Positions 4,087 through 45,770 are shown, counted from the first letter of the stretch. The stretch: DNA of 64,000 bases from Candidatus Anammoxibacter sp. (GCA_021777055.1 JAIQZO010000034.1:89721-153720), one strand, 5' to 3'. Numbers and translations: made by a program. The notes: generated from the sequence alone by a model not told the origin.

Positions 4087-7005
4087 TTACTCCTGTGTAA
4101 CAGAAACACTCTTATCTTCCGTGCGAAATACTACCTCGCCATTTGTTTCTAGAAATCCGAATCTGACCTTAAATCGTGCAGTGCCGTCTGTGCGTGTGTC
4201 AGCAGATAATGGCCTTACTGATACTGTACGCCCTTTTGCTGTTGCATCTACCCTTGCATCTGCCTGAGGATTTCCCTCCTTGTCAATAACAGTGATTACA
4301 ACTTCCCTTGGTATAAGAGAGCTTCCAAATGAATCCGGGTTTGCTGTCAATTTTGATTCATCTATAGGAGTTGGTGTAGGAGTTGGCGTTGGCTCTAATG
4401 TTGGAGCAGGAGTTGGAGTTGGCTCTAACGTTGGAGCAGGAGTAGGCGTTGGTTCTAACGTTGGTGTCGGAGTTGGTATAAATGTTGGTTCAGGCGTTAC
4501 TGTGGGTGTTGGTAACACAACGGGTAGTCCGAAGTCGCCTGTTAACGCAGGTGATGTTCCGGTTGAGACAAATGAAGTTCCTGCTGCATTTGTAAGATTG
4601 GCGCTCTCTCTTATTGTTAGTGTCAGTTCGCCAACAGCGGGAGGTGTTGCTCCGTTAGAGTCTACTATTATGATAACAATGGTTGAGGTATCAATCCGTG
4701 AGCCAATGTAATCAATCCCGAGAATCTGGGAGAATATAAACAGGTCGTCAAGCTCTGCCTTTGTTGAGATAGGAACCTCGTTTGTCGCGTCTGAAAATTT
4801 CACTGTTATGGTATCTCCGTCTGAATATACGGCATCTCCGTCGTCAGGGTCATCCGCTGTTATAGAGATGATAGATGGTCCCGGTTTAACAGAGAGCAAT
4901 TGTCCGAAAATCTCAAATTCATCATTCACCAATGCTTCAGTATCGTCATCACCGGACCATATCACAAGATACTGGTTGCTTGTGGGGTTGAAGGCCACTG
5001 CGGGTGAGAAGGCTCCAAAATTGTCGTCTCCATCTGTTCCCATATCGCTGATGCGGAAGTCGTTAGCACCAATCTCTGTACCGGTCGTGGCATCTATACG
5101 TTGCCCAAATATCTCAAATTCTTCATTCACCAATGCCCCCGTATCGTCATCGCCGGTCCACACCACAAGATACTCGTTGTTTGTAATGTTGAATACAACT
5201 GCAGTGGAAGCGACAAAGAAACCTAAAAATCCATCGGGCCCGGTATTGCTGATTCGAAAGTCGTTAGCACCAACCTCTTCGCCGGTAGCCGCGTTGATGC
5301 GTTGTCCGAAGATCTCAACCTCGTCATCCGCCAATGGGCTTGTATCGTCATCACCGAACCATACAACAAGATATTCTTCGCTTGTGGGGTTGAAGGCCAC
5401 TGCGGGTGAGAAGGCTCCAAAATTGCTGTCACCATCAGTTCCCATATCGCTGATGCGGAAGTCGTTAGCACCAATCTCTGCACCAGTCATGGCATCAAGA
5501 CGTTGTCCAAATATCTCTCTTTCGTTATCCACCAATGGGCTTGTGTCGTCATCGCCGTTCCATACAACAAGATACTCGTCGCTTGTGGGGTTGAAGGCCA
5601 CTGCGGGGGAGAAAGCTGCAAAATTGTTGTCTCCATCAGTTCCCATATCACTGATGCGGAAGTCGTTAGCGCCAACCTCTTCGCCGGTAGCCGCGTTGAT
5701 GCGTTGTGCGAAGATCTCAAACTCGAAACTCACCAATGCGCCCGTATTGTCACTACCTTGCCATACCACAAGATACTCATTGCTTGTGGGGTTGAAGGTC
5801 ACTGCAGGGTTGAAGGCAATGAAACTGGTATCCCCGTCAGTTCCCATATCGCTGATACGAAAGTCGTTTGCTCCCAATTCTATGCCAGTTGCAGCGTCAA
5901 TGCGTTGTCCGAAAATCTCAAATTCCTCATCTACCAATGTACCCGTATTGTCATCGCCGGCCCAGACCACAAGATATTCATTGTTTGTAGAGTTGAAGGC
6001 CACTACAGGGTCGGCGGTGTCGAACCGGCTATCCCCATCCGACCCCATATCGCTGATACGAAAGTCGTTAGTTCCAATATCTTTACCTGTGGTTGCGTCA
6101 ATGCGTTGTCCGAAAATCTCAACTCCGCTATCCAGCAATGTCCCTATATCGTGCTCACCGCTCCATACAACAAGATACTCGTTGTTCGTGGGATTGAAGG
6201 CAACTGAAGGGTTTAAGGCTCCAAGATCAGGATCCCCATCGGATCCCATATTGCTGATGCGGAAGTCATTTGTGCCTATTTCAGGATCAACAGTTACTGG
6301 ATAGGATGCCTTTGCAAGCGCAGTTCCATCAACAACAATACGTGTGCCGGTAACCGTTACATTCATAGTCGCTGGTAATTCATTGTTGTTTGCGTCATAC
6401 ACACGGACATCACCTAAGCTTACCACTCCGTCTTTATCATTCCATTGCCAGCCGTCTTTACCAGACACCAAGGTCCCGGCGCTTTCAACTCTTCCTTCAA
6501 TTATAAGATCATCACCCTTTAATGGTACTTTTTCTGTAATAACAAATTGTTGTTCAACCGTGTTCGCCTTTGCCATGTATTGTTCTACTATTCTACCACG
6601 TTTGTAGCTAACCATGCCGGGTTCGCTGATTTGGGGCATTACAGCTTTTTTATTAATATTTGACAGAGGAGTAGATTTTGTCCCAATATACTCAAGACTC
6701 CACTGCCAATCCGGCCCACCATGTAAAGGTCTGAACCTTACACCGTTTTTTAAAAAGGCCATTATGTGGCGGGGGTGTCTTAACTCATAACCATCTTTTG
6801 TCATTTGCAAACTATTTATAGCCACTCCCATAGCCTTTTCCGGCGATATAATATTGTCCTGCATTATTTGGAGCCGCGTTTCTATGCTGTGATCTCTAAC
6901 TGAATTAAGCGCTGCAATAGTGTGATTTGTGAATGTACATACATTAACTAAAATCATCAATATTGATATAGCGACAATAAAAAATTTGTTATACCTCTTC
7001 GCCAT
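4087..7005 (-). CDS. Giant secreted protein: seven ~67-aa propeller-like repeats, Ig-like domain, Pro/Thr linker, Big_1-like C-terminal domain (paralog 1)
   Basis: 972 aa; seven copies of [IVL]G[TA]NDFRIS[DN]MG..GD......[49 protein letters not shown] linker; RBS ggaggaataatt. Confidence 0.9.
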
Positions 7006-7662
7006 AATTATTCCTCCTTTTTTTAATTAGCGCCTTCGGCGGACTTTAATATCGGAAATAGACAGAATTTTTTAGGTAGGGTGCATTTTATGCACCGAAA
7101 TGTAACGACAGATACTCTATTAATCTACTATGATTTTGTATGTCGGTACATAATACGCGCCCTACATTTTGCAACCTTTTATCGTACAACTAATAAAAAT
7201 AAAAAATCCTGTACTATTAAATTAGCGCCTACGGCGGACTTATGCTTTTAAAATCTTAATCCTAATGATACTCTTAATCTTAATCGCAGAGTGTGGATTA
7301 AGAGTAAGAGTATCATTCTTATTTGACCCTGAAAGGGACGGATATACTAGCCCAGGGCAACGCCCTGGTACAAAAATACAAAAAGATATAGCCCTGCAAG
7401 GGCGTAACATACATTGGCGATGAATCTGGAAAACATGTTGCACCCATTCAGGGTGCGATTTAATGGTTATCGTTAACCCGGGGCGCTGCCCCGGGCTGGT
7501 ATGTATAACCCCTTTGGGGTATTCTGCATATCTTTAAATCTTTCTATTTTAAGTTAACTGTAAATTTATAATCTTAATCTATATCCACGCACAGCGATTA
7601 GGATTAAGACTATAGAATTATTGATGGGTTTCGCGATAGCGAAACCCATCTACATTCTAAAT
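7006..7662. repeat. Intergenic cassette repeat A
   Basis: Shares with 10930-11511 and 14836-15310: atgatactcttaatcttaatc inverted repeat, accctgaaagggacgg / cccagggcaacgccctgg / acccctttggggtatt hairpins, and the gatgggtttcgcgatagcgaaacccatc palindrome at 7623-7650. Confidence 0.85.
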
Positions 7663-10600
7663 CTACTCCTGTGTAACAGAAACACTCTTATCTTCCGTGC
7701 TAAATACTACCTCGCCGTTTGTTTCAAGAAATCCGAATCTGACCTTGAATCGTGCAGTGCCGTCTGTGCGAGTGTCAGCAGATAATGGTCTTACTGATAC
7801 TGTACGCCCTTTTGCTGTTGCATCTACCCTTACACCTGCCTGAGGATTCCCCTCCTTGTCAAGAACCGTGATTACAACATCCTTTGGTATAAGAGAGCTT
7901 CCAAATGAATCCGGGTTAGCTGTCAATTTTGATTCATCTATAGGAGTTGGTGTAGGAGTAGGCGTTGGCTCTAACGTTGGAGCAGGGGTAGGAGTTGGCT
8001 CTGCCGTTGGTGTCGGTGTTGGCGTAGTTATAGGTGTAAATGTTGGCTCTGGTGTTGCCGTGGGGGTTGGTAACACAACGGGTAGTCCGAAGTCGCCTGC
8101 TAACGCAGGTGATGTCCCGGTTGAGACAAATGAAGTTCCTGCTGCATTTGTAAGATTGCCGCTCTCTTTTATTGTTAGTGTCAGTTCGCCAACGGCTGGA
8201 GGTGTTGCTCCGTTAGAGTCTACTATAATGATAACAAGGGTTGAGGTATCAGTCCATGAGCCAATGTAATCAATTCCGAGAATCTGGGAGAATATAAACA
8301 GGTTGTCAAGCTCTGCCTTTGTTGTGATGGGAACCTCGTTGGTTGCTCCTGAAAATAGCACTGTTATGGTATCTCCGTCTGAATATACAGCATCTCCATC
8401 GTCAGGGTCATCCGCAGTTACAGATAAGATAGAAGGGCCTTCCAAGGTCCCGAAATCGCCAACCAGTGCAGGTGATGTGGCTGTTGAAGGAAGTGAGGTC
8501 TCTTCCACATTCTTAAGGTTGCTGCTCTCTTTAACTGTCAATGTGAACACGCCTATTTCAGGGGGAGTTGCGCCAATTGAATTAGTAATGAATATAACCA
8601 GGGTTGATGCATTGCTCCATGTACCAGTATAATCTATCCCCAGGGAGTCGGAGAATGTAAATATGGAATCTATCTCCACCTTTGATGCGACAGAAGGCTC
8701 GTTTGTCTCTTCTGAAAAGATTACAGTAATAATATCACTATCGGAATATACTGTATCTCCATCATCAGGGTCATCTGCAGTTATAGAGAGGATGGACGGC
8801 CCTGGCTTAACAGAGAGCAATTGCCCGAAAATCTCAAATTCATCATCCACCAATGCGCCAGTATCGTCATCGCCATTCCACACCACAAGATACTGATTGT
8901 TTGTGGGGTTGAAGTCAACTGCAGGTTGGCTGGCAAAGAAACTGGTATCCCCGTCAGTTCCCATATCGCTAATGCGAAAGTCGTTGGCCCCAAGCTCTGC
9001 TCCAGTAGCGGCGTCAATGCGTTGCCCGAAAATCTCCAATTCATCATCCACCAATGGGTTCGTATCGTCATCACCGTTCCATACCACAAGATACTCGTTG
9101 TTTGTAAGGTTGTAGCTTAGTGTAGGGAACTGTCCACCGAAACTGATATCACTATCAGTTCCCATATCGCTGATGCGGAAGTCGTTAGCTCCAACCTCTT
9201 CGCCAGTAGCAGCGTTGATGCGTTGTCCGAAGATCTCAAACTCGTCATCTACAAGTGTGCCAATATTGTCATCGCCATTCCAGACAACAAGATACTCGTT
9301 GTTTGTGGGGGAGTAGGCAACGGCGGGAAATCTAGCTTCAAAATTGCCATCTCCATTAGTTCCCATATCGCTAATGCGGAAGTCGTTAGCTCCAATCTCT
9401 GTACCAGTTATGGCATCAATACGTTGGCCAAATATCTCAAATTCGCCATTCACCAATGTCTCCGTATCGTCCTCACCTTTCCACACCACAAGATACTGAT
9501 TGTTTGTAGAGTTGAAGCTTACTGCAGGGAATTGTGCAGCGAAACTGGTATCACCATCAGTTCCCATATCACTGATGCGGAAGTCGTTAGCTCCAACCTC
9601 TTCGCCGGTAGCAGCGTTAATGCGTTGTCCGAAGACCTCAGCCTCGAAACTCACCAATGCGCCCGTATTGTCACTACCGTGCCAGACAACAAGATACTCG
9701 TTGCTTGTGGGATTGAAGGTCACTGCAGGGTTTAAGGCAAAGAAACCGGTATCCCCGTCAGTTCCCATATCACTGATGCGGAAGTCGTTAGTGCCAATTT
9801 CATCGCCGGTAGCAGCGTTAATGCGTTGTCCGAAGATCTCAAACTCGTCATCTCCAAGTGTACCAATATTTTCATCTCCAATCCACACAACAAGATACTC
9901 GTTGTTTGTGGGGTTGAAGGCCACTTTAGGGAGAAAAGCATCGAAACTGGTATCCGCATCAGTTCCCATATCACTGATGCGGAAGTCGTTAGTGCCAATC
10001 TCTGCGCCAGTGGTTGCGTCAATGCGTTGGCCAAAAATCTCAAATCCGCTATCCCGCAATGTGCCTATATCATGCTTGCCGCTCCATACCACAAGATACT
10101 CGTTGTTCGTGGGGTTAAAGGCAACTGAAGGGTTGACGGCGTCAAGATTGGGATCCCCATCGGATCCCATATTGCTGATGCGGAAGTCATTTGTGCCTAT
10201 CTCCGGATCGATAGTAACCGGATAGGTAGCCTTTGCAAGCGCAGTTCCATCAACAACAATACGTGTGCCTGAAACGGTTACATTCATTGTTGCAGGCAGT
10301 TCATTGCCCTCTGCGTCATATACAAAAACATCACCCAAACTTACAACTCCGTTTTTATCATTCCATTGCCAGCCGTCTTTACCAGACTCCAAGGTCCCGG
10401 CACTTTCAACGGCCCCCTCAATTACAAGATCGCTACCTTTTAATGGTAATTGTTCTGTAATAACAAATTGCTGTTCCACCGTATTTGCCTTTGCCAGGTA
10501 TTGTTCCACTATACCACCACGCTTGTAGCTTATCACTCCGGGTTCGCTGCTTTGCGGCATTACAGTTTTTCTATTAATATATGTCAGAGGTGTAGATTCT

Positions 10601-10929
10601 GTTCCGATATATTCAAGTCTCCACTGCCAATCAGGCCCGCCATGTAAAGGTTTGAAACTTACACCGTCACTTAAAAAGGTCATAATGTGGCGTGGGTGAC
10701 TCAACTCATAACCATCTTCTGTTCTTTGCAAATTATTTATGGCTACTCCCATAGCCTTCTCCGGCGATATAATATTGTCTTGTGTTGCCTGTGCCTTATT
10801 TCTAACGTTATCTGTAACTGAATTAAGAGCTGCAATAGTGTGATTTGTGAATGTCCCTACATCAACTAAAATCATCAATGTTGATATAGCGACAATAAAA
10901 AATATGTTATACCTCTTCTCCATAATCAT
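7663..10929 (-). CDS. Giant secreted protein (paralog 2): seven repeats, two Ig-like domains, Pro/Thr linker, Big_1-like domain
   Basis: 1088 aa; near-identical architecture to the 4087-7005 product; seven NDFRIS repeats counted. Confidence 0.9.
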   Translation of the reverse strand: MIMEKRYNIFFIVAISTLMILVDVGTFTNHTIAALNSVTDNVRNKAQATQDNIISPEKAMGVAINNLQRTEDGYELSHPRHIMTFLSDGVSFKPLHGGPDWQWRLEYIGTESTPLTYINRKTVMPQSSEPGVISYKRGGIVEQYLAKANTVEQQFVITEQLPLKGSDLVIEGAVESAGTLESGKDGWQWNDKNGVVSLGDVFVYDAEGNELPATMNVTVSGTRIVVDGTALAKATYPVTIDPEIGTNDFRISNMGSDGDPNLDAVNPSVAFNPTNNEYLVVWSGKHDIGTLRDSGFEIFGQRIDATTGAEIGTNDFRISDMGTDADTSFDAFLPKVAFNPTNNEYLVVWIGDENIGTLGDDEFEIFGQRINAATGDEIGTNDFRISDMGTDGDTGFFALNPAVTFNPTSNEYLVVWHGSDNTGALVSFEAEVFGQRINAATGEEVGANDFRISDMGTDGDTSFAAQFPAVSFNSTNNQYLVVWKGEDDTETLVNGEFEIFGQRIDAITGTEIGANDFRISDMGTNGDGNFEARFPAVAYSPTNNEYLVVWNGDDNIGTLVDDEFEIFGQRINAATGEEVGANDFRISDMGTDSDISFGGQFPTLSYNLTNNEYLVVWNGDDDTNPLVDDELEIFGQRIDAATGAELGANDFRISDMGTDGDTSFFASQPAVDFNPTNNQYLVVWNGDDDTGALVDDEFEIFGQLLSVKPGPSILSITADDPDDGDTVYSDSDIITVIFSEETNEPSVASKVEIDSIFTFSDSLGIDYTGTWSNASTLVIFITNSIGATPPEIGVFTLTVKESSNLKNVEETSLPSTATSPALVGDFGTLEGPSILSVTADDPDDGDAVYSDGDTITVLFSGATNEVPITTKAELDNLFIFSQILGIDYIGSWTDTSTLVIIIVDSNGATPPAVGELTLTIKESGNLTNAAGTSFVSTGTSPALAGDFGLPVVLPTPTATPEPTFTPITTPTPTPTAEPTPTPAPTLEPTPTPTPTPIDESKLTANPDSFGSSLIPKDVVITVLDKEGNPQAGVRVDATAKGRTVSVRPLSADTRTDGTARFKVRFGFLETNGEVVFSTEDKSVSVTQE

Positions 10930-11511
10930 TTCTCCTTTATTTAATTAGGGCTTTCTGCTGACTTTAATCTCAGAATTAGACTGAATATTTTAGGTAGAGT
11001 GCATTTTATGCACCGAAATGAGCTTTCTGTCGAACAACTAATAAAAATGAACATTTCTATACTATTAAATTAACGCCAACGGTGGACTTATGCTTTTAAA
11101 ATCTTAATCCTAATGATACTCTAAATCTTAATCGTAGAGAGTGGATTAAGATTTAGAGTATCATTAGGATTTGCCCCTGAAAGGGGCGGATATACCAGCC
11201 CAGGGCAACGCCCTAGGACAAAAATACAAAAAGATATAGCCCTGTAAGGGCGTAACATACATTGGCGATGAATCTGGAAAACATGTTGCACCCATTCAGG
11301 GTGCGATTTAATGGTTATCGTTAATCCAGGGCGTTGTCCTGGGCTGCTATGTATAACCCCTTTGGGGGTATTTTGCATATCTTTAAATCTTTCTATTCTA
11401 AGTTAACTGTAAAATTATAATCTTTATCTATATCCACACACAGCGATTAGAATTAAGACTATAGAATTATTGATGGGTTTCGCGATAGCGAAACCCACCT
11501 ACATTCTAAAT
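10930..11511. repeat. Intergenic cassette repeat B
   Basis: Near-identical to cassette repeat A; ends with gatgggtttcgcgatagcgaaaccca and ctactcttgtgtaac. Confidence 0.85.
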
Positions 11512-14500
11512 CTACTCTTGTGTAACAGAAACACTCTTATCTTCCGTGTTAAATACTGCCTCGCCATTTGTTGCAAGAAATCCGAATCTGACCTTGAATC
11601 GTGCTGTTCCGTCTGCACGTGTATTTGCCGATGAAGGTCTTACGGTTACTGTACGCCCGTTCGTAGTTGTCTCAACTCTAACACCGGACCTGGGATTTCC
11701 ATCCTGATCAAGGGCTGTGACTATAACCTCTTGTGGTATAAGAGTGCTTCTAAAGGATTCAGGGTTAGCAGTCAATGCCGATTTATCTACCGGGGTTGGT
11801 GTAGGTGTTATTACTACCGTTGTTGTTGGTATCGGAGTAGGTGTTGGTTCTGCCGTTGTTGTCGGTGCCGGAGTGGCTGTTGGCGCTACCGTTGTTATTG
11901 GCGTCGGAGTAGGTGTTGTTGGTCCTGTAGTTGTTGTCGGCGTTGGAGTCCCGGAAGGAGTAGATGTTGGAGTTGCCGTCGGGGTTGGTACCACAACAGT
12001 CAACCCGAAGTCTCCCGTTAATGCCGGTGATGTAGCGGTTGAAACAAGTGACGTTTCATCTGCATTCATAAGGTTGCCGCTCTCTTTTAATGTAAGTGTT
12101 AGTCCTCCAATGGCAGGAGGTGTTGCACCCTTTGAATCTACTATAATGATGACAAGAGTTGATGCATCAGTCCATGTGCCTATGTAATCAACCCCTAGAA
12201 CCTGAGAGAATTGGAAAATGTTGTCAATCTCAACCTTTGTTGAGACTGGTGGTTGGTTTGTTGCACCTGCAAACAACACAGTTATGGTATCTCCGTCTGA
12301 ATAGATCCCATCTCCATCATCAGGGTCGTCAGCTGTTACAGATAATATGGAGGGGGCCTCCAGTGCCCCGAAATCTCCAACCAGTGCAGATGATGTTGCT
12401 GTTGAAGAGAATGATGTCCCTGCTGCATTCTTAAGGTTACCGCTCTCTTTGACTGTTAATGTAAACACATCAACGGCAGGAGGTGTTGCACCTGTTGAAT
12501 CGACTATGGTTATAACCATAGTTGAGGCATCACTCCAAACACCAGTGTAATCCATCCCCAGGGAGTCTGAGAATGTAAATAGGGCATTTATTTCCACATT
12601 TGTCGAAACTGGAGGTTGGTTTGTTGCTTCTGAAAAGACTACGGTTATTGTATCGCCATCGGTATATATTATATCACCATCATCAGGATCATCTGCTGTT
12701 ATTGTGTCAATGGATGGACCAGGATTAACAGAGAATAGCTGGCCGTATATCTCCACGTCTAATGGTGCAATGTCTCCACCGTGCCATACCACAAAATACT
12801 CATTGCTTGCAGAGTTGAAGGTAACTGCAGCACTCTGGGCATCGAAACTAAGATCTCCATCTGGCCCCATATCACTGAGGCGCATGTCATTAGTATCTAT
12901 CTCTGTCTCTTTACCATCAATAACTTTGATGCGCTGGCCAAAAATCTCATCTTCGCTAAACCCTATTGTTCCTGAAATATAACTTCCCCACACCACAAAA
13001 TACTCGTTGTTTAAGGGGTTGAATGTTACACTAGGACTGAATGCCAAGATACTGGTATCTCCATCAGTTCCCATATCACTGATCCGGAAGTCATTTGCGC
13101 CTATCTCAGTTGCATCGGCAGCGTTGATGCGCTGGCCGAATATCTCATTTTCATCATCCACCAATGGAGCCGTATCGTCATCACCACGCCACACCACAAG
13201 ATACTCGTTGTTTATAGAGTTATATGTCACAGAAGGAGAGAAAGCCTGGAAATTGGTGTTTCCATCGGGTCCCATATCGCTGATACGGAAGTCATTTGCG
13301 CCTATCTCAGTGCCATCGGCAGCGTTGATGCGTTGACCGAATATCTCAGATTCATCATCCACTAATGGAGCTGTATCGTCATCACCTTCCCAGACAACAA
13401 GATACTCGTTGTTTGTAGAGTTGAATGTTACTTTAGGGTTAAAGGTGTTGAAACGAAAATCATCATCAGGCCCCATATCGCTGATACGAAAGTCATTTGT
13501 TCCTATCTCTGCGCCGGTAGCAGCGTTAATGCGTTGACCATAAATCTCATTTTCACTACCCAATGTGTCTGTTATTTCTGTACCGTTCCATACCACAAGA
13601 TATTCGTTATTTGTTGAGTTATATGTTACATCTGGAACTAAACCAAAGAAATTGTTATCTTGAGCAACCCCCATATCGCTAATACGGAAGTCATTTGTTC
13701 CTATCTCAGTACCATCGGCCGCATTGATACGCTGGCCGAATATCTCAATTTCATCACCCACTAATGGATCTGTATCATCATCACCATGCCACACCACAAG
13801 GTACTCGTTGTTTGTAGAATTGTATGCCACTGCCGGGCTGCCTGCGTCGAAATCGCTATTACCATCAGGGCCCATGTCGCTGATACGAATGTCATTTGTA
13901 CCTAGCTCTAATCCGGTAGTAGCGTCGATTCGTTGGCCGTATATTTCCGTTTCATCATCCACCAATGGGAGAGTGTCGTCATCAGCTTCCCAGACAACAA
14001 AATACTCGTTGTTTATAGGGTTGTATGTTACTGAAGGGGATAAAGCGCGGAAATTGGTATCCCCATTAAAAGCTCCCATATCGCTAATACGAAAGTCATT
14101 TGTTCCTATTTCCGGATCGATAATAACAGGATATACTGCTTTTGCAAGTGCTGCCCCATCAACAACAATACGTGTGCCGGAAGAGGTGACATTCATTGTT
14201 GCGGGAAGTTCATTGTAATCTGCGTCAAATACACGGACATCTCCCAAACTTACCATGCCATTTTTATCATTCCATAACCAGCCATTGTCAACGGTCTCCA
14301 ATGCCCCGGAACTCTTAACGGTTCCCTCTATTACAAGATCACGACCCTTTAATGGCAATTGTTCTGTTATAACAAATTGCTGTTCGACCGTATCTGCTTT
14401 TGCCAGATATTGTTCTACTATTCCTCCACGTTTGTAACTTACCACTCCAGGTTCAATGCTTTGTGGCATTACAGTTTTTTTATTAATATATGATAAAGAA

Positions 14501-14835
14501 GTTGATTCTGCTCCGATATGCTCAAGTCTCCACTGCCAATCAGGACCGCCACGCAAGGGCTTGAAACTTACTCCGTCCATTGAAAATGTCATTATGTGGC
14601 GGGGATGGCTTAACTTGTAACCATCTTCTGTCTTTTGCAAATTGTTTATAGCCAGCCCGACGGCCTTCTCTGGAGATATAATACTGCCTTGCGTTAACGA
14701 ATGAGGCGTTTCCAGACTATCACCCGTGGCCGAATTAATCGCAGCAATAGTGTGGTTTGTAAATGTTACGACATCAACCAAAATCATCAATGTTGATATG
14801 GCTACAATTAAAAATATGTTATACCTCTTCTCCAT
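11512..14835 (-). CDS. Giant secreted protein (paralog 3): seven repeats, two Ig-like domains, Pro/Thr linker, Big_1-like domain
   Basis: 1107 aa; seven ND[FIM]R[IL]SDMG repeats counted; same N- and C-terminal domains, more diverged from paralogs 1 and 2. Confidence 0.9.
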   Translation of the reverse strand: MEKRYNIFLIVAISTLMILVDVVTFTNHTIAAINSATGDSLETPHSLTQGSIISPEKAVGLAINNLQKTEDGYKLSHPRHIMTFSMDGVSFKPLRGGPDWQWRLEHIGAESTSLSYINKKTVMPQSIEPGVVSYKRGGIVEQYLAKADTVEQQFVITEQLPLKGRDLVIEGTVKSSGALETVDNGWLWNDKNGMVSLGDVRVFDADYNELPATMNVTSSGTRIVVDGAALAKAVYPVIIDPEIGTNDFRISDMGAFNGDTNFRALSPSVTYNPINNEYFVVWEADDDTLPLVDDETEIYGQRIDATTGLELGTNDIRISDMGPDGNSDFDAGSPAVAYNSTNNEYLVVWHGDDDTDPLVGDEIEIFGQRINAADGTEIGTNDFRISDMGVAQDNNFFGLVPDVTYNSTNNEYLVVWNGTEITDTLGSENEIYGQRINAATGAEIGTNDFRISDMGPDDDFRFNTFNPKVTFNSTNNEYLVVWEGDDDTAPLVDDESEIFGQRINAADGTEIGANDFRISDMGPDGNTNFQAFSPSVTYNSINNEYLVVWRGDDDTAPLVDDENEIFGQRINAADATEIGANDFRISDMGTDGDTSILAFSPSVTFNPLNNEYFVVWGSYISGTIGFSEDEIFGQRIKVIDGKETEIDTNDMRLSDMGPDGDLSFDAQSAAVTFNSASNEYFVVWHGGDIAPLDVEIYGQLFSVNPGPSIDTITADDPDDGDIIYTDGDTITVVFSEATNQPPVSTNVEINALFTFSDSLGMDYTGVWSDASTMVITIVDSTGATPPAVDVFTLTVKESGNLKNAAGTSFSSTATSSALVGDFGALEAPSILSVTADDPDDGDGIYSDGDTITVLFAGATNQPPVSTKVEIDNIFQFSQVLGVDYIGTWTDASTLVIIIVDSKGATPPAIGGLTLTLKESGNLMNADETSLVSTATSPALTGDFGLTVVVPTPTATPTSTPSGTPTPTTTTGPTTPTPTPITTVAPTATPAPTTTAEPTPTPIPTTTVVITPTPTPVDKSALTANPESFRSTLIPQEVIVTALDQDGNPRSGVRVETTTNGRTVTVRPSSANTRADGTARFKVRFGFLATNGEAVFNTEDKSVSVTQE

Positions 14836-35833: not shown

Positions 35834-35919
35834 GAAACCTTTAAACGAAATGTGGTGTTTGCTCTATATGGTTGAGAACTGAAGAATACCATCTTGTTGT
35901 TAAATCTATGTTGTATTTT

Positions 35920-35968
35920 ATAGTATTACCCTGTAAAAACTTGTTTTTTAGAAAGAAATTTTTACTGT
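35920..35968 (-). repeat. Dispersed TTTCTARAAAACAAGTTTTTACAGGGTAATACTATAA motif (copy)
   Basis: tatagtattaccctgtaaaaacttgttttttagaaaga; related copies near 15955, 17780, 31530 and 55244. Confidence 0.6.
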
Positions 35969-36862
35969 GCATTGTTAAGTTATTTGTAACAATATAGTTA
36001 CGGGTTACTTGATGCTAGATGCTTGATAATTTATTCAACCGGCTTAAAATGTTATATTTTAAATCTAAATCGTTTTTTTTTCATGTTGCATCTTAACTGG
36101 GAAACTAGAAATGTAACTATTTACCTGTATCTAGAATCCCGTATCTAGTCTTTTGGTTGCGGCTTCGTCGCACTATGTAATAGAGTCTAATTTTTTTAGC
36201 CAGAAAAGAGTTCGTTGGAATAATAAAATCTATTCTCTAAAAACAGCAGACGCCATTTTAGCTCTTCCAGTTTGGCAGGAATAGATATATCAAATGCAGT
36301 TGTGATGTTTTTGTAAGATAAGCACTTTCTCCTCACTTGTTTACAACTCCCTATTGTCAAGTTGTCATCCCCTGGTTTTTACTTAAAGAGTTTGCTGTTT
36401 CCTGCCATGCAATTTCCATCTCAGGGTTTTTCCTCTGTATCAGTTTTTAAATGATCTAAATTCCGTTTGCATTTAAGCTTTTAAATATGCTTTTGTAAAT
36501 TCATGATTCTTCATCTGTTTGTAAGATAATCTTTCATTGTTTGCCATGATTAACCCTTTTTTTGTATAATTTTGTAAATTCTATGGCCTTTTCTATCGCT
36601 ATTTCGTTTTGGTCAACGTTGTGAATTAATTGGTGCTTTACTGTTAACAGTATTCCCATTATAATTTTGCAGTAGCCGCAGTGAAGAAACAAAGATTTAG
36701 AATCGTAACAAATTTCTTAGACCTTCATAATTAAACTGCTGGTGATAGTTTCTTGTTCCGGGTATATCTTTGCGATATGACTATATGAAAATGGTAAAGT
36801 CGGAAAACTGAATTTTAAAAAGAATAAAAGCATATTTACTTTTTTAGGGTATTACTTTAGTT

Positions 36863-39730
36863 ATGAAATTAAGATTAAAACAGAAAGAGAGCATGTATAA
36901 CTCAACCATAAAATCCATATGGTCGAGTTTGTTGACAATTGTCATTTTCTTAAGTTTTGGAGCTTTCCCAATCTATTGTTTTGCCGGTTTACAACCGGAC
37001 AAAGGCCAATCCATCCTTTTTTCCTCTGTTAATGGGTTGGATCGGCACCCGGAATATGATGTCTTTTTAAGGGGCATCGGTGAGAAGTTGATTTCCGGGC
37101 AAGATACGGAACTTGAAATTCTTGTACAATACGGCGGAGCATACGGACGAGGAAAAATGCCGGGAGATGCTGTAAAAAATTTGCAAACAGTTTACGGAAG
37201 GATAGTTGAAGTCTTTATTGTCTCTGATGATTTTGAGCATTTTGTCCATACAAGACCTGAAGACTTTGGCGAAATCACTACAGAGATTAAACGGTCAGGT
37301 GTCTTTAAGATAAGGAATAACTTTCCATCTCCCGGTTGGTACAGGGTAGTGATATGCTTCGCGCACAAAGGGCAGGACATTTATAAGCATTTTAATATCA
37401 GCGTTGCTGGGTCAGGTAACGCTAGTGATGTAAAAAAAGAAGATAAAGTGTTGAAAACTGCAGGTACTGGGCTAAATTCTCAATCCGGCACTTTTGACGG
37501 GTATAAGGTTTCTTTAAATATTGGGCCTGCACCTGTTGCATCGAGAAGGAAATCTAAGCTTGTTTATAACATACAAGATGAAAACGGGAACGATGTTGAC
37601 GACCTTGATGTCTTTATGGGTACAGAGCTTCATTTTATTACATGGCGTAATGATTTTAACTTTTTCGGATACCAAAGGACTAAACCGCCAGAAGGGAAAC
37701 CTGGTACGGTTTTAGTAGTTCCTCCCATAAAGACAGAAATAAAATACGGTACAGGGATTTTACGGGAGATAAAGAAGGACGGCAAGATGCTTATCGAACA
37801 TGGAAAGGTTGAAGGTTTACTGCCGGTGGGAAAGTTTCCGTTTAAGGTTAAAGATAAAGAAGCGAGTATAAAGGTTGAGGTTGGTGATTGGGTCGAGTTC
37901 TGGGTTGATAATAATGAGACGGAAGGTATTGTAATTACACGTATAGAACCACTTGCGACTATGCCGACAAGCGGGCAGAAAGGCGTTTATCAGTGGGCGG
38001 GGAATTTGCCGGTTTATCCCGGACCAAGTGTTCCCATTGAACATGTGTTTCCTGCCGCGGGAAGATACGTTCTCTTTGCCCAATTTGAAAATAAGGGGAA
38101 GATTGTTACTACCAAATTTTTTGTAGATGTTAAAGATGCTGCATCTTTGAAAAGCCCGGTTGTGGTTGCTGGAAGTGAGAGTGACACGGATAAAGGGTTG
38201 GTAAAATTGACTCCGGCTGAGAAAAACGGGCAATTGATATATCGGACATCCAAAAGTCTGTCTGGTGGTAAAATATATATAAAACAGGATGACGGTTCTA
38301 AAATAGATGCTACTGAAACAGGAATAACCTGCGTTGGATGCCATGGTGAAGATGGAAGAGGTGGCCAGGAGGGAGGGGTTCTTACCTCTGATATAAGATA
38401 TGTTTATCTGACCAAACCGTATGGCGTTACACACATTTCCGGTAGAAAACATCCTCCGTATACAGACATGTTGTTAAAGAAAGCTATTACCGATGGAATT
38501 GATCCGGGAAATAACAAACTGGATCCCACCATGGTTCGTTGGGAGATGAGCGATGCCGATCTAAATGATTTGTGTGCTTATATTCACAGGTTAAGCGAGA
38601 TGGGAAAGCCGGGAGTGACAGACGATTATATCAGGATTGGATGCGTACTGGATGTGTCAGGCCCTCTTGCCAGTACAGGAAAAGATGCAATGAAGATGAT
38701 AGAGGGGGCATTTAAGAATATAAACAACAGCGGAAAGATATATGGGCGTTCTTTGAAACTAGTAGTGGGTGATGGGGGAAACGACCCTGTTAAATCACTT
38801 GAAGCGGCAAAAACCCTTGTGGAGAATGAAAACATTTTTTGTATGATGGGGAATCTGGGCGAAGCTGCAACAAATAGTGTGATACCGTTTCTGGAAGAGA
38901 AGGGGATTCCCATAGTTGCTCCGTTGGCTCCCACATATCAGCCCGATACGGTAATGGAGCAGAATGCATTCTTTCTATTCCCCACAGTTGCCTATCAGAC
39001 TAGTGTCATGGTGGATTACATTATTCGGACACGTAAGGATAGAAAATCAAAACCCAAGGTAGCTGTAATTTCATCAAATGACAAATTTGGGAAGTCTGGT
39101 TTGGAGGCAGCGAAAAAGCAGCTTAAACTTTACGGAAACAGATCGGTGGTAAACATTGAATATGATTACCGTAATCTTGATGTTAAAAAGATAGCGGCAT
39201 CACTTGCGGAAAGCGGAGCGGAGAGTGTACTGATCCTTACACCAGATGCAAGGATTTTCGGTGTTGTATCAGAGGCCGACCAATTAGGTCTTTCACTTAA
39301 ATATTTCTGTAACAATATGCTTTTAATCAGAAATATTCTAAATATACCAAAGGCGAGCGATAGGTTCCTTTTGGCCCAGAACTATAGTTTTGCAGGTAGT
39401 GCGAACCCCGTATGTGCGGAATTTCTTGAAATAATCAAGGGGTTACAGCTTAGCGCTAAGAACGTAATGATACAGATGGGCGCATTTACCGGAGTAAAAT
39501 TGTTGGAAGAGGGGCTACGCCTTGCCGGAAGGGATTTAACGAGAAAGTCTTTAATCTCCGGCCTTGAAGAGATTCAGTTTAATAGCGGTATTTTTGGTGT
39601 TATTTCGTATAAACCGGGGAATCACTCTGGAGATACAGGTATATTTCTGGTTCGCCCGGATGAAGCGAGCGGTAACTTTGTCCCTGTGACAAAATGGATG
39701 AGGCCTACTGAGAGCGGGATTATGTTTTAA
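36863..39730 (+). CDS. Multidomain periplasmic fusion: YtkA-like domain(s) with CusF-like module, c-type heme domain, LivK-like ligand-binding domain
   Basis: Signal peptide; GTGILREIKKDGKMLIEHGKVEGLLPVGKFPFKVKD..VEVGDWVEFWVDNNETEGIVITRIEPL (CusF-like); CVGCH heme motif; IRIGCVLDVSGPLASTGKDAMKMIEGAF... (type 1 periplasmic-binding fold). Confidence 0.88.
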   Translation: MKLRLKQKESMYNSTIKSIWSSLLTIVIFLSFGAFPIYCFAGLQPDKGQSILFSSVNGLDRHPEYDVFLRGIGEKLISGQDTELEILVQYGGAYGRGKMPGDAVKNLQTVYGRIVEVFIVSDDFEHFVHTRPEDFGEITTEIKRSGVFKIRNNFPSPGWYRVVICFAHKGQDIYKHFNISVAGSGNASDVKKEDKVLKTAGTGLNSQSGTFDGYKVSLNIGPAPVASRRKSKLVYNIQDENGNDVDDLDVFMGTELHFITWRNDFNFFGYQRTKPPEGKPGTVLVVPPIKTEIKYGTGILREIKKDGKMLIEHGKVEGLLPVGKFPFKVKDKEASIKVEVGDWVEFWVDNNETEGIVITRIEPLATMPTSGQKGVYQWAGNLPVYPGPSVPIEHVFPAAGRYVLFAQFENKGKIVTTKFFVDVKDAASLKSPVVVAGSESDTDKGLVKLTPAEKNGQLIYRTSKSLSGGKIYIKQDDGSKIDATETGITCVGCHGEDGRGGQEGGVLTSDIRYVYLTKPYGVTHISGRKHPPYTDMLLKKAITDGIDPGNNKLDPTMVRWEMSDADLNDLCAYIHRLSEMGKPGVTDDYIRIGCVLDVSGPLASTGKDAMKMIEGAFKNINNSGKIYGRSLKLVVGDGGNDPVKSLEAAKTLVENENIFCMMGNLGEAATNSVIPFLEEKGIPIVAPLAPTYQPDTVMEQNAFFLFPTVAYQTSVMVDYIIRTRKDRKSKPKVAVISSNDKFGKSGLEAAKKQLKLYGNRSVVNIEYDYRNLDVKKIAASLAESGAESVLILTPDARIFGVVSEADQLGLSLKYFCNNMLLIRNILNIPKASDRFLLAQNYSFAGSANPVCAEFLEIIKGLQLSAKNVMIQMGAFTGVKLLEEGLRLAGRDLTRKSLISGLEEIQFNSGIFGVISYKPGNHSGDTGIFLVRPDEASGNFVPVTKWMRPTESGIMF

Positions 39731-39950
39731 TGGTTAAAAGACATCGTGCGGCGATGCCGCAACCAAAATTGGGAATACAGAATCCTGGAGTCAGAATTCA
39801 GAATAAATCATAGGTTCGTAATCATTTTACCATGTTTTTTTTTAAGAAGTTTATATAAAGTAATACTATAAAGATGGTGAGCGATACTATTTTTCGTACA
39901 AAGATTAAGAAAAGAGACAAGGGGCTCTTAATCATTTAGAATATTCATTT

Positions 39951-41654
39951 ATGGACACAAAGAACAGATTTGATATAAAAAGACAAACGAAATCAAACAT
40001 AAAGAGATCTCGCCCGGTATCCTTTTATTTTCTTTTATGTTTCCTGTTATTCTCTATTTCAGAAGTAACGGGTAAATATTGTATATGTGCTGCCGAATCA
40101 CTATTAGCGACTCAAAATACCGGGTTCCCGTCTAGGCAAGTGGAGAATAATGTGGCGGTTGAGTTTTTCTTTAGACCTCTGCCTGCAGATGAAAATGGTT
40201 TTGAGGATGAGTTGGCAAAATTTAAACAAAATTTTACCGCAGAGAAGAAAGACAGTCAAAACCGTGTGCGTGTTAACGAGGATGTTGCCATAATATTTAA
40301 GGTTACGGACGCTACTATGGACTGGCCTATACAGGGCCAGGGATTTGTCCCAGACTCACCCATTAGGTTTGCTTCGGGACCTGGCAATCTGGATTATACC
40401 AAGAGTGGAATCTTAAAAAGGGCCAAGTTATACGGAGGTCACTTCCCAATTAATGAATATGTTTACCTTTATGTCCTAAATAGTATCGAGGGTACTGTCA
40501 GCATAATGGATATATCCAGTCTTAATTCAGGTAAACCCATAGAAAAGATCTATTTATCTGACGGTAAGCCGTGCATTGGCATTGACATTGATATAGAGTG
40601 GCTAGGGCGTTATGCATATGTTACACTGGATAGCGATGAAGTTGCGGTTATTGATTGCACGAGGCTCTGTGTTATTCGCAAAATTCCTGTGGGAAGTAAG
40701 CCGCACCATGTGTTTGTTCAGCCTGATGGTAGGCTTGCTTGGGTGTGCAATGATGGAGATGGTACCGTTACGGTTATTGATACGGAAAACCAGTCTGTTG
40801 TAAAAACTGTTTCTGTTGGTGCTGGCCATCATGAAATTGCATTTACCGATGATAGTCGGTATGCCTGCATTACGAATCAAGGAAGTGATAGCGTAACCCT
40901 TGTGGACGTATTCACGTTAACTGTCCGTGGAGATGTTTCTGTGGGTAAACGGCCTCACGGTTTGGGCTTTTCCAGCCTTAGCCAGTTTATGTATGTGGCA
41001 AATGAAGGTGATGGCACTGTTTCTGTTATAAATCCGTGGTCGATGGAACGAATGAATACTATTAAAGCGGGTAAAGGTGTTAGAAAGGTGCGTTTCGGGC
41101 CGTTTCCAAGGTATGGTTTTGCACCGAACAAAGAGGATAATACCTGTTCTATGATAGACGTTACCAAGGACATTGTTGTTAATAATCTCAAAACGGGTTT
41201 GGGGCCGGAAGATGTGACATTCTCCCCGGATTGGATATTTATCAGGAACACTGCGAGCGCGGACCTAACGGTGGTTAGCCTGAATACAATGGAATTGCAG
41301 CAGGATATACCAATAGGTTATAAAAAAGTGACAGGTGTTGATCTACCAATGGGGCATGTTTATATGGAACCTCTGGGGGACGGACATTCAGTCTTAATAC
41401 CAAGTCCTGAAGAAGGAACAGTTTACAGATATGCACCCGGGGAAGCGATGGCAGGCGGAACTGTGCCTACGGACATTTACAATACACAGTCTAAAGGTGC
41501 TTCTGCAATAGCGGTTTACTACAGGGGGTTAAAGGAGATATCCAGTGGTGTATATCTAAGAGTTGTACGGTTTCAGAAACCTGGACGATATGAATTGGGC
41601 TTTTATATAGACAATCCTGAACTGACAGCCTGCTTTGATATATACGCAAAGTGA
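39951..41654 (+). CDS. Periplasmic YVTN-type beta-propeller protein (paralog 1)
   Basis: Repeated VWVCNDGDGTVTVIDT / VANEGDGTVSVINPW motifs; N-terminal signal/anchor. Confidence 0.9.
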   Translation: MDTKNRFDIKRQTKSNIKRSRPVSFYFLLCFLLFSISEVTGKYCICAAESLLATQNTGFPSRQVENNVAVEFFFRPLPADENGFEDELAKFKQNFTAEKKDSQNRVRVNEDVAIIFKVTDATMDWPIQGQGFVPDSPIRFASGPGNLDYTKSGILKRAKLYGGHFPINEYVYLYVLNSIEGTVSIMDISSLNSGKPIEKIYLSDGKPCIGIDIDIEWLGRYAYVTLDSDEVAVIDCTRLCVIRKIPVGSKPHHVFVQPDGRLAWVCNDGDGTVTVIDTENQSVVKTVSVGAGHHEIAFTDDSRYACITNQGSDSVTLVDVFTLTVRGDVSVGKRPHGLGFSSLSQFMYVANEGDGTVSVINPWSMERMNTIKAGKGVRKVRFGPFPRYGFAPNKEDNTCSMIDVTKDIVVNNLKTGLGPEDVTFSPDWIFIRNTASADLTVVSLNTMELQQDIPIGYKKVTGVDLPMGHVYMEPLGDGHSVLIPSPEEGTVYRYAPGEAMAGGTVPTDIYNTQSKGASAIAVYYRGLKEISSGVYLRVVRFQKPGRYELGFYIDNPELTACFDIYAK

Positions 41655-41871
41655 TTAGAAGGGCGGCATTTAGCGATCCATCTTTCGGTTATCTTTGAAT
41701 GTTATTCAATCGTGATTTTTTTGATATAGCGAAGGTTACATCTGTAAGATCTTCAATTATAGCATCCAAATCTAACCAAAACCTGAAGCACTAAATGTCA
41801 AACTTCTTAGCCCTTTAACCTATAAACGGAATTTATTAGTTTTCGATGATTATTGATTAGGAGGACATAAG

Positions 41872-42555
41872 ATGAAAAACACTATATACAGGTTTGGTAC
41901 TGTAATTTGCGTTTCTTTTGCTGTACTTTTTCTTTCAGCCTGTTTTGCCTACGCAGAAACTGAAAGTGCAGTGCCACAGGACAAACAAAAAGCTGAAGAG
42001 AAAGGGGCATGTTGTGATGAAGCGGCAAAGAAAGCGGCACTGAATGTTAAAGTTGAAGAGGTGCAGCAGGAATTACCACAACTTCCAAACATTGTTATGC
42101 TTACTCAGGCCGGAGAAACCGTTCGTATTTCCGAAGTCCTGAAAGACAAGATAACCGTTATAAACTTTATTTATACTTCATGCACCAGTGTGTGTCAGAT
42201 ACTCACTGCCAACTTCCGTCAGCTTGAAAAGGCCCTGGACGGCATAGATACGGATCGAGAAGTGCAGCTTGTGTCTATTTCTATTGACCCTGATACCGAT
42301 ACACCTGAAAGGCTTCGGCAGTATGCCGTAAAACAGAGGATTGATTTGGAAAGATGGACCCTTTTGGTGAGTGGAATTAACTCAATCGAAAAATTTTCCA
42401 GGGCATTAGGGTTTTCAAATATTGATAAATCTACGCACGCACCCGGTGTCGTAATCTGGGATGACATAGACAAAAGGTGGCAGCGGTTTGTTGGAATCAC
42501 TCCTCCCCATGTTTTATCAAAAGAGATTGCAAAACTGCCAGCTATAAGTGGCTGA
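41872..42555 (+). CDS. SCO1/SenC family protein
   Basis: INFIYTSCTSVCQILTANFRQLEKAL (CxxxC), VSISIDPDTDTPERLRQYA, THAPGVVIWD. Confidence 0.93.
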   Translation: MKNTIYRFGTVICVSFAVLFLSACFAYAETESAVPQDKQKAEEKGACCDEAAKKAALNVKVEEVQQELPQLPNIVMLTQAGETVRISEVLKDKITVINFIYTSCTSVCQILTANFRQLEKALDGIDTDREVQLVSISIDPDTDTPERLRQYAVKQRIDLERWTLLVSGINSIEKFSRALGFSNIDKSTHAPGVVIWDDIDKRWQRFVGITPPHVLSKEIAKLPAISG

Positions 42556-42588
42556 GGTGTAAATTTGATAAATCTTAAATGAATTTTA

Positions 42589-44184
42589 ATGTTTAAAATA
42601 TTATTAATAATAATGATTCGGCTATTTAAATATATATTTTTCCATATGGAGGGAGTATTTAAGAGTATTATCCCTCTAGTTGCTGTATTGATAGTGGTAA
42701 ATTCGGCTGTGTTGGCCGGTTTTGTTGAAAATGGAGTATCCATTGATTTCAAGGTTGAGCCTCTTAGCGTCAATTCATTGGCAAATAGTTCGGCGGATAG
42801 TATACATATTGGTCAGGAAGTAATGATCAATTTTATAGTAAAAGACGCTTTTACCGGGGCTCCGGTAAAAGGGCTTTTGCCTGATTCATTTCTACAGTAT
42901 AAACCAAGAGCAATTACCCCTGAAGAGATTAAGGCCTCTATGGAGAAATGCCGCTTTAGGGCATTGAAAAGGGGGCGTATGCACAATGGTCACCCGCCTG
43001 AATTGGAAAATACCTATGTGATGTGTTTGAATAGTTCAGACAATACTATTTCAGTAATAGACCCATTGATGAAACCAAAATTTATAAGAAAAAAAATCTC
43101 TCTTCCTGAAAAGTGTGCCGATATGGAAATTGATGAATACGGAAGTGATCTTTACGTTACCAGTGAGGACGGGAAGGTTATTATTATAGACTGCAATCTG
43201 CTTGAAGTTATTAAAAGCATAGACGTTGGTGTAAGTCCTTACCATATTATCTTTCAGCCTGACGGACGGTTTGTGTGGGTTGGCAACGATGGAGATGGGA
43301 CTGTGAGCGTTATAGATGCAGAAAAAAGGTTGCTAGTAAAAAATATCCCGGTGGGTAAGGGGCATCATGAGATAGCATTTAGCGATGATTCGTTTTATGC
43401 GTTCGTTACAAACCGGGACGATGATAGTGTTACGGTAATTGATATAAATAGCCTTGTTGCCGTAAAGACATTAATTACGGGAAAGAACCCCCATGGCTTG
43501 GCATACTCTAGCCTGAGTCAGTATGTTTATGTCGCAAATGAAGGAGACGGTACTATCTCTGTGCTGGATACGGTCAAACAGGAGGTAGTAAATACTCTTT
43601 TGTCTGGAAAAGGTGTACGAACTATTGCATTCAGTGACAACGGACGTCTCTGTTTTGCCATAAATAAAAAAGAAAACAGTGTGTCGATATTTGATATCAG
43701 TAGAGACAGGATAATAAAAACCATAGATACTGGCATCAGGCCAGAGAGTATTGTTGTTTCAGAGAAATATGTGTATATCAGGAATGTCGGCAGTCCTGAT
43801 GTAACGGTTATAAAGTTAAAAGATTTGACAAGTAAAGGCCAGATTCCTGTTGGCGATGTGCCGCCTAATAATACAGATCTGAAGATGGGGCATATCGATA
43901 TGGCCGATTCGTATATGGTAATTGTTCCGAATCCGACAGACGGAATTGTCTATACAATGATTCACGGAGATGATGGGACTGCTTTCAAGTATCATACAGG
44001 AACAGGCGGCACGACCAAAGTTGCTATTTTCTGGACCGGTCTTAAAGAGACGCAGCCTGGGGTATATTCACGTGTTGTTAAATTTAATGAGCCGGGGCGT
44101 CATGAAGTGGGGTTTTATATTGGTAGTCCTGAGTTGACGGCGTGTTTTGATGTTAATGTCGCTGCATCTACCATTGGCAGGTAA
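42589..44184 (+). CDS. Periplasmic YVTN-type beta-propeller protein (paralog 2)
   Basis: VWVGNDGDGTVSVIDAEK, VYVANEGDGTISVLDT; alignable with 39951-41654. Start may be the later ATG at 42646. Confidence 0.9.
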   Translation: MFKILLIIMIRLFKYIFFHMEGVFKSIIPLVAVLIVVNSAVLAGFVENGVSIDFKVEPLSVNSLANSSADSIHIGQEVMINFIVKDAFTGAPVKGLLPDSFLQYKPRAITPEEIKASMEKCRFRALKRGRMHNGHPPELENTYVMCLNSSDNTISVIDPLMKPKFIRKKISLPEKCADMEIDEYGSDLYVTSEDGKVIIIDCNLLEVIKSIDVGVSPYHIIFQPDGRFVWVGNDGDGTVSVIDAEKRLLVKNIPVGKGHHEIAFSDDSFYAFVTNRDDDSVTVIDINSLVAVKTLITGKNPHGLAYSSLSQYVYVANEGDGTISVLDTVKQEVVNTLLSGKGVRTIAFSDNGRLCFAINKKENSVSIFDISRDRIIKTIDTGIRPESIVVSEKYVYIRNVGSPDVTVIKLKDLTSKGQIPVGDVPPNNTDLKMGHIDMADSYMVIVPNPTDGIVYTMIHGDDGTAFKYHTGTGGTTKVAIFWTGLKETQPGVYSRVVKFNEPGRHEVGFYIGSPELTACFDVNVAASTIGR

Positions 44185-44333
44185 TAAGTAGAATATTGGA
44201 GGCAAGGTCAAAGTCTGACGTTGCAAATCTTAAAGATAAAAGGCCAAAAGGATTTTACCTTCAGACTTCTGCCTATCCACCTGACTAATTACGAAATTAG
44301 TTATAGTAGATATAAACAGATAAAATAAAGAAA

Positions 44334-45770
44334 ATGGGAAACGAAAAAAATAGAGGAAAAAAGAGCAATAATTCCAGAGGGAAAGTAGAAAAGCCAAAAA
44401 AGAATAAAGCTTTTACAGAAGAGGTAGTTAAAGAATCTGCGCAGGATATAGATGCGAATGGAATGGCTGTGAACAATGAAATAAAACTTGCCCATAGAGA
44501 TAAGGAGAATGCTGAAGCTGTGGAAGTTTGCAAGGAGAAAACCTGTAAAGAGGGAGGTGTGGGTGCGGGGTGGACAATAAGTATTGCGCTGTCCGCTGCT
44601 CTGGGGTTGGCAATGTCTATCTACCTTACAATACATCACTATCAAATAATGAGTGGACTGCCGGACTATCAAAGTTTCTGCTCCATAAGTGAGTACATTG
44701 ATTGTGATATGGTAAATACCAGCAGTTACTCCGAATTCCGAGGGTTGCCTGTTGCACTTTTCGGTGCAGGTATTTATGCGTGTGTTGTCTGTTTGATTAT
44801 CCTGAGTATTTTTGCGAGAGGTACCACACTAAAACGGTACATTTCAGCAATAACTATCCTGGGCTTTGCGTCGTTTTGCGGATCCATATATTTTGCAATT
44901 GTTTCTACCTTTATTCTTCACGCAATATGTATCCTCTGTGTCGGAACATATCTGATAAATCTCTTTTTCTTCCTTGGTGGTACAGCGGCCATACGTAAGT
45001 TGGACAAAGGGAGCTTCAACCCTGTAAGATCTGTCACATCAATGTTTATGGCAGGTAGGTCAGGAGAAGGTCTTGCAATGGGAAATGCTTTGGGGATCTT
45101 TGCCATAATTATGGTTGTTATCCAGGGGTTTCTTTCTGTGTTATACCTTGATGCTAAATATCTGGGTTTTTCAGATAGTGATATTGCTAGTTTCAAGGAA
45201 AAATATATGGCTATAAAACCTCAGGAGATAGATTTGTCGGATTCTCCATACTGGGGGACTGACAACCCGGATCTGACAATCGTCGTTTTCGAAGATTTTC
45301 TCTGCCATTTCTGCAAACGTGCCCATGTAACCGCGTTTCCAATATTTAAGGAGTATAAGAACAGGATCAAGATTGTATTTAAACATCTTCCTTATGACAA
45401 GGAGTGTAACAGTGCCCTGCAGAAAACCATACATCCTGGTGCCTGTAAATCCGCAGTTGCGGCTGCATGTGCATCCATTCAGGGAGAGTTTGCCAGATTC
45501 CAGGAGTACTTCTTTTCTCACCAGGATGTGATAAAACCTGACATGGATATTGCTAAAGTTGCATCTGAGATCGGTGGTGTTGACATGGATAAATTCGAGT
45601 TATGTCTTGATCAGGGTAAGGGGGAGTGGGTAATACGAAGGGACTTTAATGAGGCAATGAAGCTAACCGTTAGACGTACGCCGGCATATTTCTTTAATGG
45701 ACGTAAATGGGAAGGTGCATTAAAGCCTATATTTATAAAAAAGATACTGGAATGGGAACTGGGGACTTAG
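44334..45770 (+). CDS. VKOR - DsbA/thioredoxin-like fusion protein
   Basis: VKOR TM bundle with loop cysteines FCSISEYIDCD and CILC; C-terminal thioredoxin-like domain with CHFC and cis-Pro (RTPAYFF). Confidence 0.92.
   Translation: MGNEKNRGKKSNNSRGKVEKPKKNKAFTEEVVKESAQDIDANGMAVNNEIKLAHRDKENAEAVEVCKEKTCKEGGVGAGWTISIALSAALGLAMSIYLTIHHYQIMSGLPDYQSFCSISEYIDCDMVNTSSYSEFRGLPVALFGAGIYACVVCLIILSIFARGTTLKRYISAITILGFASFCGSIYFAIVSTFILHAICILCVGTYLINLFFFLGGTAAIRKLDKGSFNPVRSVTSMFMAGRSGEGLAMGNALGIFAIIMVVIQGFLSVLYLDAKYLGFSDSDIASFKEKYMAIKPQEIDLSDSPYWGTDNPDLTIVVFEDFLCHFCKRAHVTAFPIFKEYKNRIKIVFKHLPYDKECNSALQKTIHPGACKSAVAAACASIQGEFARFQEYFFSHQDVIKPDMDIAKVASEIGGVDMDKFELCLDQGKGEWVIRRDFNEAMKLTVRRTPAYFFNGRKWEGALKPIFIKKILEWELGT

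Follow-up and report, generated by a model that had tools for sequence, protein, structure and literature searches.

In Pseudomonas putida GB-1, the mnxG operon (PputGB1_2447 followed by five further genes) encodes MnxG, a YVTN propeller, two SCO1 proteins, an amino acid/amide ABC substrate-binding protein with a cytochrome c domain, and SurA (PMC11409713 Table 4; PMC8218464). Manganese oxidation in a related Pseudomonas is lowered when a transposon inserts into a thiol-disulfide isomerase gene (PMC11409713), and work cited in that paper places the cytochrome c maturation (ccm) genes among those required for manganese oxidation in P. putida. Manganese oxidases have also been reported in other Planctomycetota in a study of a subsea tunnel (PMC10732223), and our literature search found no paper pairing anammox genomes with MnxG. 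Here, we analyzed a 64,000-nucleotide stretch of the genome of a Candidatus (Ca.) Anammoxibacter sp., hereafter the window, in which five consecutive plus-strand genes, P1 to P5 (36863-45770), had been proposed from the sequence to form an undescribed periplasmic copper/redox assembly module. We find that the module is real and conserved, that it is ordinary in kind given the mnx operon, and that it is unusual in its host, its separation from an oxidase and its composition. From the comparisons below, we consider it likely that the five genes are an mnx-type accessory operon, rearranged and lacking its oxidase gene, whose products fold four giant multicopper oxidases (MCOs) and load them with copper in trans. 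The observations behind this reading are the gene content, its conservation, the co-occurrence of module and oxidase across genomes, the complete copper ligands of the oxidases and the absence of haem-copper oxidases from the window genome.

The five genes are intact, the coordinates assigned to them in the original prediction are exact, and Pfam recovers all of the domains. P1 (36863-39730, 955 amino acids [aa]) consists of a signal peptide, an Ig-like region, a degenerate CusF-like domain, a cytochrome c and a type-I periplasmic binding protein (PBP) of the LivK/Peripla_BP_6 type, with Pfam matches to CusF_Ec, Cytochrom_C and Peripla_BP_6. P2 (39951-41654, 567 aa) and P4 (42589-44184, 531 aa) are paralogous YVTN beta-propellers (A and B, 39% identical) that match YVTN/YNCE/cyt d1-type families in Pfam and, for P2, NCBIfam; P2 is flanked by N- and C-terminal Ig-like strands, and P4 has GHHE and CF motifs that are present in most MCO-linked propeller homologues. 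P3 (41872-42555, 227 aa) is a SCO1/SenC copper chaperone with an N-terminal LSAC lipobox-like motif, and P5 (44334-45770, 478 aa) is a VKOR fused to a DsbA/thioredoxin-4 domain. The genes are separated by gaps of 220, 217, 33 and 149 bases. Their redox and metal motifs are intact, including the SCO1 CxxxC (CTSVC) and conserved His, the CILC and CHFC of VKOR-DsbA, and the CVGCH of the P1 cytochrome, whose axial Met is invariant among relatives in the alignment; CxxCH is present in all 16 cytochrome c-PBP members checked. CusF uses Met and Trp as copper ligands. The CusF_Ec match of P1 barely exceeds its cut-off (27.7 against 27.0 bits), and downstream of the retained His, where CusF has its ligands, the sequence is LLPVGKFPF and contains neither Met nor Trp, so we do not count this domain as a copper site, and copper binding by it is doubtful. 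A PDB sequence search with the domain likewise returned no CusF, and a structure model of P1, poor across this region (pLDDT 60 overall), was not used.

This content places the window beside the P. putida operon, with which it has in common a YVTN propeller, SCO1/SenC, a cytochrome c with an ABC-type substrate-binding protein, and a periplasmic folding factor. P1 is the counterpart of the P. putida substrate-binding/cytochrome c gene, extended by the CusF-like and Ig-like parts, and the thiol-disulfide isomerase and ccm requirements in Pseudomonas fit roles for the Dsb and heme components. The same gene types thus already form an operon behind mnxG, and the module cannot be called undescribed. 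The window differs in that mnxG, which heads the operon in P. putida, is missing, in that one SCO1 stands where P. putida has two and the propeller is duplicated, in its gene order, in having VKOR-DsbA in the place of the SurA-domain protein, and in its anammox host. The Bacillus mnxABCDEFG operon encodes a giant MCO of the same family (structure 9bxa), and its MnxC is SCO1-like. That operon is not known to include a propeller or cytochrome c-PBP, and its small MnxE/F subunits did not turn up here, where no search aimed at them was made.

The window genome (G000, 94% complete) carries the gene for hydrazine synthase beta in full (C14:3727-4833; 632 bits, NCBIfam cut-off 560), and the host is therefore an anammox bacterium. 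In the closest relative compared, Ca. Anammoxibacter sp. OFTM214 (same family, other genus), the corresponding genes lie on the plus strand in the order MCO, propeller, P1, P2, SCO1, a 304-aa open reading frame, P4 and P5. The MCO (2,183 aa) and upstream propeller (648 aa) occupy a position that corresponds to a gene-free stretch of ~1 kb upstream of P1 in the window (35834-36862), in which we found no MCO remnant. Identity between the two loci is 58% for P1 over its length, 67% for P3, 65% for P5 and 53-65% for the propellers. Three Ca. Jettenia genomes (loci L036, L037 and L072) have an MCO, a propeller, a double SCO1, cytochrome c plus PBP, and SurA_N plus DsbA, arranged as in P. putida. 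The cytochrome c and PBP are fused in one of these genomes (G024), in separate frames in another (G035), and broken into two frames in G047 (Ca. J. ecosi, L038/L072). The C-terminal end of the G035 MCO (L037) is broken. By homology, the giant protein of OFTM214 and of Jettenia (1,680-1,693 aa in the latter) belongs to the MnxG family of multicopper oxidases, matching 9bxa at 3.4e-57 and E = 2.8e-112, respectively; the Jettenia protein scores 1,481 bits against the NCBIfam MnxG model NF041487, under its cut-off of 3,100. The SCO1 client, which the original prediction had regarded as unclear, is thus most likely a giant MnxG-like MCO, as such a protein heads the cluster in both the sister genus and Jettenia. 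The propellers and the P1 fusion, first put forward as candidate clients or sensors, are more likely accessory proteins of the MCO, and the periplasmic copper/redox assembly role was right in kind and conserved as a unit, while this likely client and the known gene set had gone unseen.

The Jettenia proteins are only ~30% identical to those of the window: the DsbA part of P5 is 30-31% identical to Jettenia SurA-DsbA, which stands where the window has VKOR-DsbA, and P2 and P4 are 28-33% identical to the MCO-linked propellers of Jettenia and Acidobacteria. In trees, the Jettenia proteins group with those of Acidobacteria and relatives, apart from those of the window, and the P2/P4 duplication falls on the Anammoxibacteraceae stem, predating the divergence of the two genera. 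The two anammox lineages probably acquired the system separately, and the association of MCO and module in Brocadiales would therefore amount to two independent observations.

Linkage beyond these genera was examined by searching GTDB genomes with a cytochrome c-PBP alignment that holds no MCO, SCO1 or propeller sequence. Full-length matches were found at 12 non-archaeal loci, in Acidobacteria, Chromatiales, Methylococcales, Verrucomicrobia, Geobacter and Brocadiales. A propeller and SCO1 are adjacent at all 12, and a giant MCO sequence lies within 10 kb at all but one (Geobacter, L081); in Jettenia, Acidobacteria, Methylococcales, Chromatiales and Verrucomicrobia, the propeller, SCO1 and cytochrome c-PBP flank MnxG homologues. 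Archaeal matches (L084-L088, L090) have the cytochrome domain alone in common and were set aside. Because the gene set is kept across other families and phyla, the five-gene arrangement is not a product of chance, and the idea that the genes might not be conserved together in relatives fails. Among 59 Brocadiales genomes, the giant MCO (>900 bits) and the cytochrome c-PBP occur in exactly the same five, a match expected by chance ~1 time in 5 million if genomes are assumed independent, although the five represent only two clades. SCO1 is not exclusive to these five and is present in further Brocadiales.

The window genome itself encodes four giant MnxG-like MCOs of 2,012-2,165 aa, all on contigs other than that of the module (C48:25532, L046; C93:31945, L064; C66:6864, L043; C14:25837, L065). 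They are 65-70% identical to the OFTM214 MCO and 65-93% identical among themselves, and across 12 MCOs, these four among them, none of the 12 copper ligands (HxxHxH, HCHxxxHxxxxM, HxH, HxH) varies. Two of the four are followed by a propeller of their own, and the C66 copy adjoins an M36 metallopeptidase and a thioredoxin-like protein. Since the four MCOs are dispersed and P1 is single-copy in the genome, one accessory operon would serve four oxidases. The four copies also raised the possibility that the giant MCO is an S-layer protein of the Kuenenia type; we found no literature link, one Brocadiales genome of 4.4 Mb on a single contig (G012, presumed Kuenenia) lacks a giant MCO, and the intact ligands favor an enzyme. 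A second region of the genome, on C105 (L039/L040), holds two SCO1-like genes and a 649-aa propeller, together with genes that also occur near the OFTM214 MCO; one of the two SCO1-like proteins (457 aa) has an N-terminal extension and shares 61% identity with P3 across 182 aa. At C14:250000-260600 (L042) lies a cluster of several YVTN propeller genes, with frames of 471, 687 and 1,196 aa, of which some end in Big_1-like sequence.

We propose that the giant MCO would be exported unfolded via Sec, after which VKOR-DsbA would form or correct its disulfides and pass electrons to quinone. SCO1, through its CxxxC and His, would load the type-1 and trinuclear copper sites, with the propellers acting as a scaffold or as co-subunits. 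The heme-containing PBP could link copper loading to the sensing of redox state or of a ligand, or could accept electrons from the oxidase. At the cell surface, under micro-oxic conditions, the mature MCO would then use O2 to oxidize Mn(II), a putative substrate in this anaerobe, or else another metal or a small molecule.

Several points weigh against an oxidase-less mnx operon acting in trans. Anammox bacteria are anaerobes and MCOs use O2. There is no giant MCO inside the window or beside the module in this genome, the only window match to giant MCOs being an Ig-like stretch of ~80 aa in other genes. The Anammoxibacter-type MCO is divergent, only 26-29% identical to that of Jettenia, and the OFTM214 protein scores 62.7 bits against the NF041487 equivalog cut-off of 3,100. 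The link between module and MCO is drawn from genes and genomes, and a NirK-like protein encoded on contig C5 offers another possible copper client. Finally, in the Planctomycetota family f22 (seven genomes; loci L126-L132 and L139-L144), a trio of propeller, cytochrome c-PBP and SurA-DsbA, without SCO1, adjoins a giant subtilase rather than an MCO.

The f22 arrangement leads to the strongest alternative, in which the propeller, cytochrome c-PBP and Dsb proteins are a kit of general use in exporting and folding giant secreted proteins, MCOs and subtilases among them, and only SCO1 is specific to a copper client. In this family some trios adjoin only a subtilase C-terminal remnant at a contig end, and one genome (G371) has two of the three members on a contig that ends before SurA-DsbA. 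The giant MCO lies elsewhere in the genome, and in the five genomes inspected a double SCO1 comes after it, with a propeller between in one case; a second MCO in G306 has no SCO1 adjoining. Thus, SCO1 follows the copper enzyme, and the other three either are a general kit, with which the SurA and DsbA domains fit as factors in chaperoned export, or act on the MCO in trans. The latter may still hold, given the presence of a giant MCO in all seven f22 genomes that hold the cytochrome c-PBP and the exact coincidence of the two in Brocadiales. In addition, the f22 subtilases and MCOs have C-terminal repeats in common, and the linkage to subtilase may instead reflect common surface anchoring. We regard a general kit as a serious contender but an unlikely one. 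The contig of one f22 locus (L131, G156 contig C39) is an inverted duplication that is likely an assembly artefact.

It is considerably less probable that the module matures a different copper enzyme. The NirK-like protein (366 aa; L134, G000 C5:57975-58262) scores 163 bits against TIGR02376, below the cut-off of 296, and has no linkage to the module, whereas the linked copper enzyme in other lineages is the giant MCO; it could conceivably be a second client beside the MCO. The possibility that the propellers are themselves enzymes, either lactonase-type N2O reductases (L-NosZ) or relatives of hydrazine synthase beta (HZS-beta), is nearly refuted. Sequence and fold matches to such proteins do occur, and Foldseek with the AlphaFold model of P4 (pLDDT 83.8) returned generic propellers, HZS-beta, NosZ and NirS, but matches of this kind come from any YVTN propeller. 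The two window propellers reach only 83.6 and 94.1 bits against a cut-off of 700 for L-NosZ (NF052460) and 72.3 and 82.3 bits against 560 for hydrazine synthase beta (NF052340), and the GHH pair holds the only conserved His in the family. Least credible of all, and also nearly refuted, is a cytochrome oxidase assembly cluster with its oxidase encoded elsewhere: the classical role of SCO1 is to supply copper to the CuA site in cytochrome oxidase, but the lack of an adjacent oxidase noted in the original prediction extends to the whole 94%-complete genome, which gave no COX1 or COX2 match in a search whose control was positive in 8-9 of 14 genomes.

With the module read as an accessory operon for MnxG-like oxidases, SCO1 gains a client and a vague redox module becomes a testable system. 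Complete giant MnxG-like oxidases and their helper genes are placed in two anammox lineages, Anammoxibacteraceae and Jettenia, for which we found no earlier report, and these genes hint that some anammox bacteria may oxidize metals. The heme-containing PBP could be a candidate for the cytochrome behind the ccm requirement for manganese oxidation in P. putida. We speculate, tentatively and against the balance of probability, that Anammoxibacteraceae run a surface metal-oxidizing system in which one unlinked operon matures four giant MnxG-like oxidases for Mn(II), another metal or a nitrogen compound, with electrons possibly passing to the heme-PBP instead of O2 under anoxia. If true, such a system would join the anammox and manganese cycles within one cell.

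The module is flanked in the window by unrelated genes, with a CheR gene upstream (Pfam) and MazG-like and aquaporin-like genes downstream, as judged from sequence. Farther away, on the minus strand at 4087-14835, three successive proteins of 972-1,107 aa have ends that match the Big_1-like (Ig) domain at the C terminus of giant MCOs, and these are possibly surface proteins sharing an anchor.

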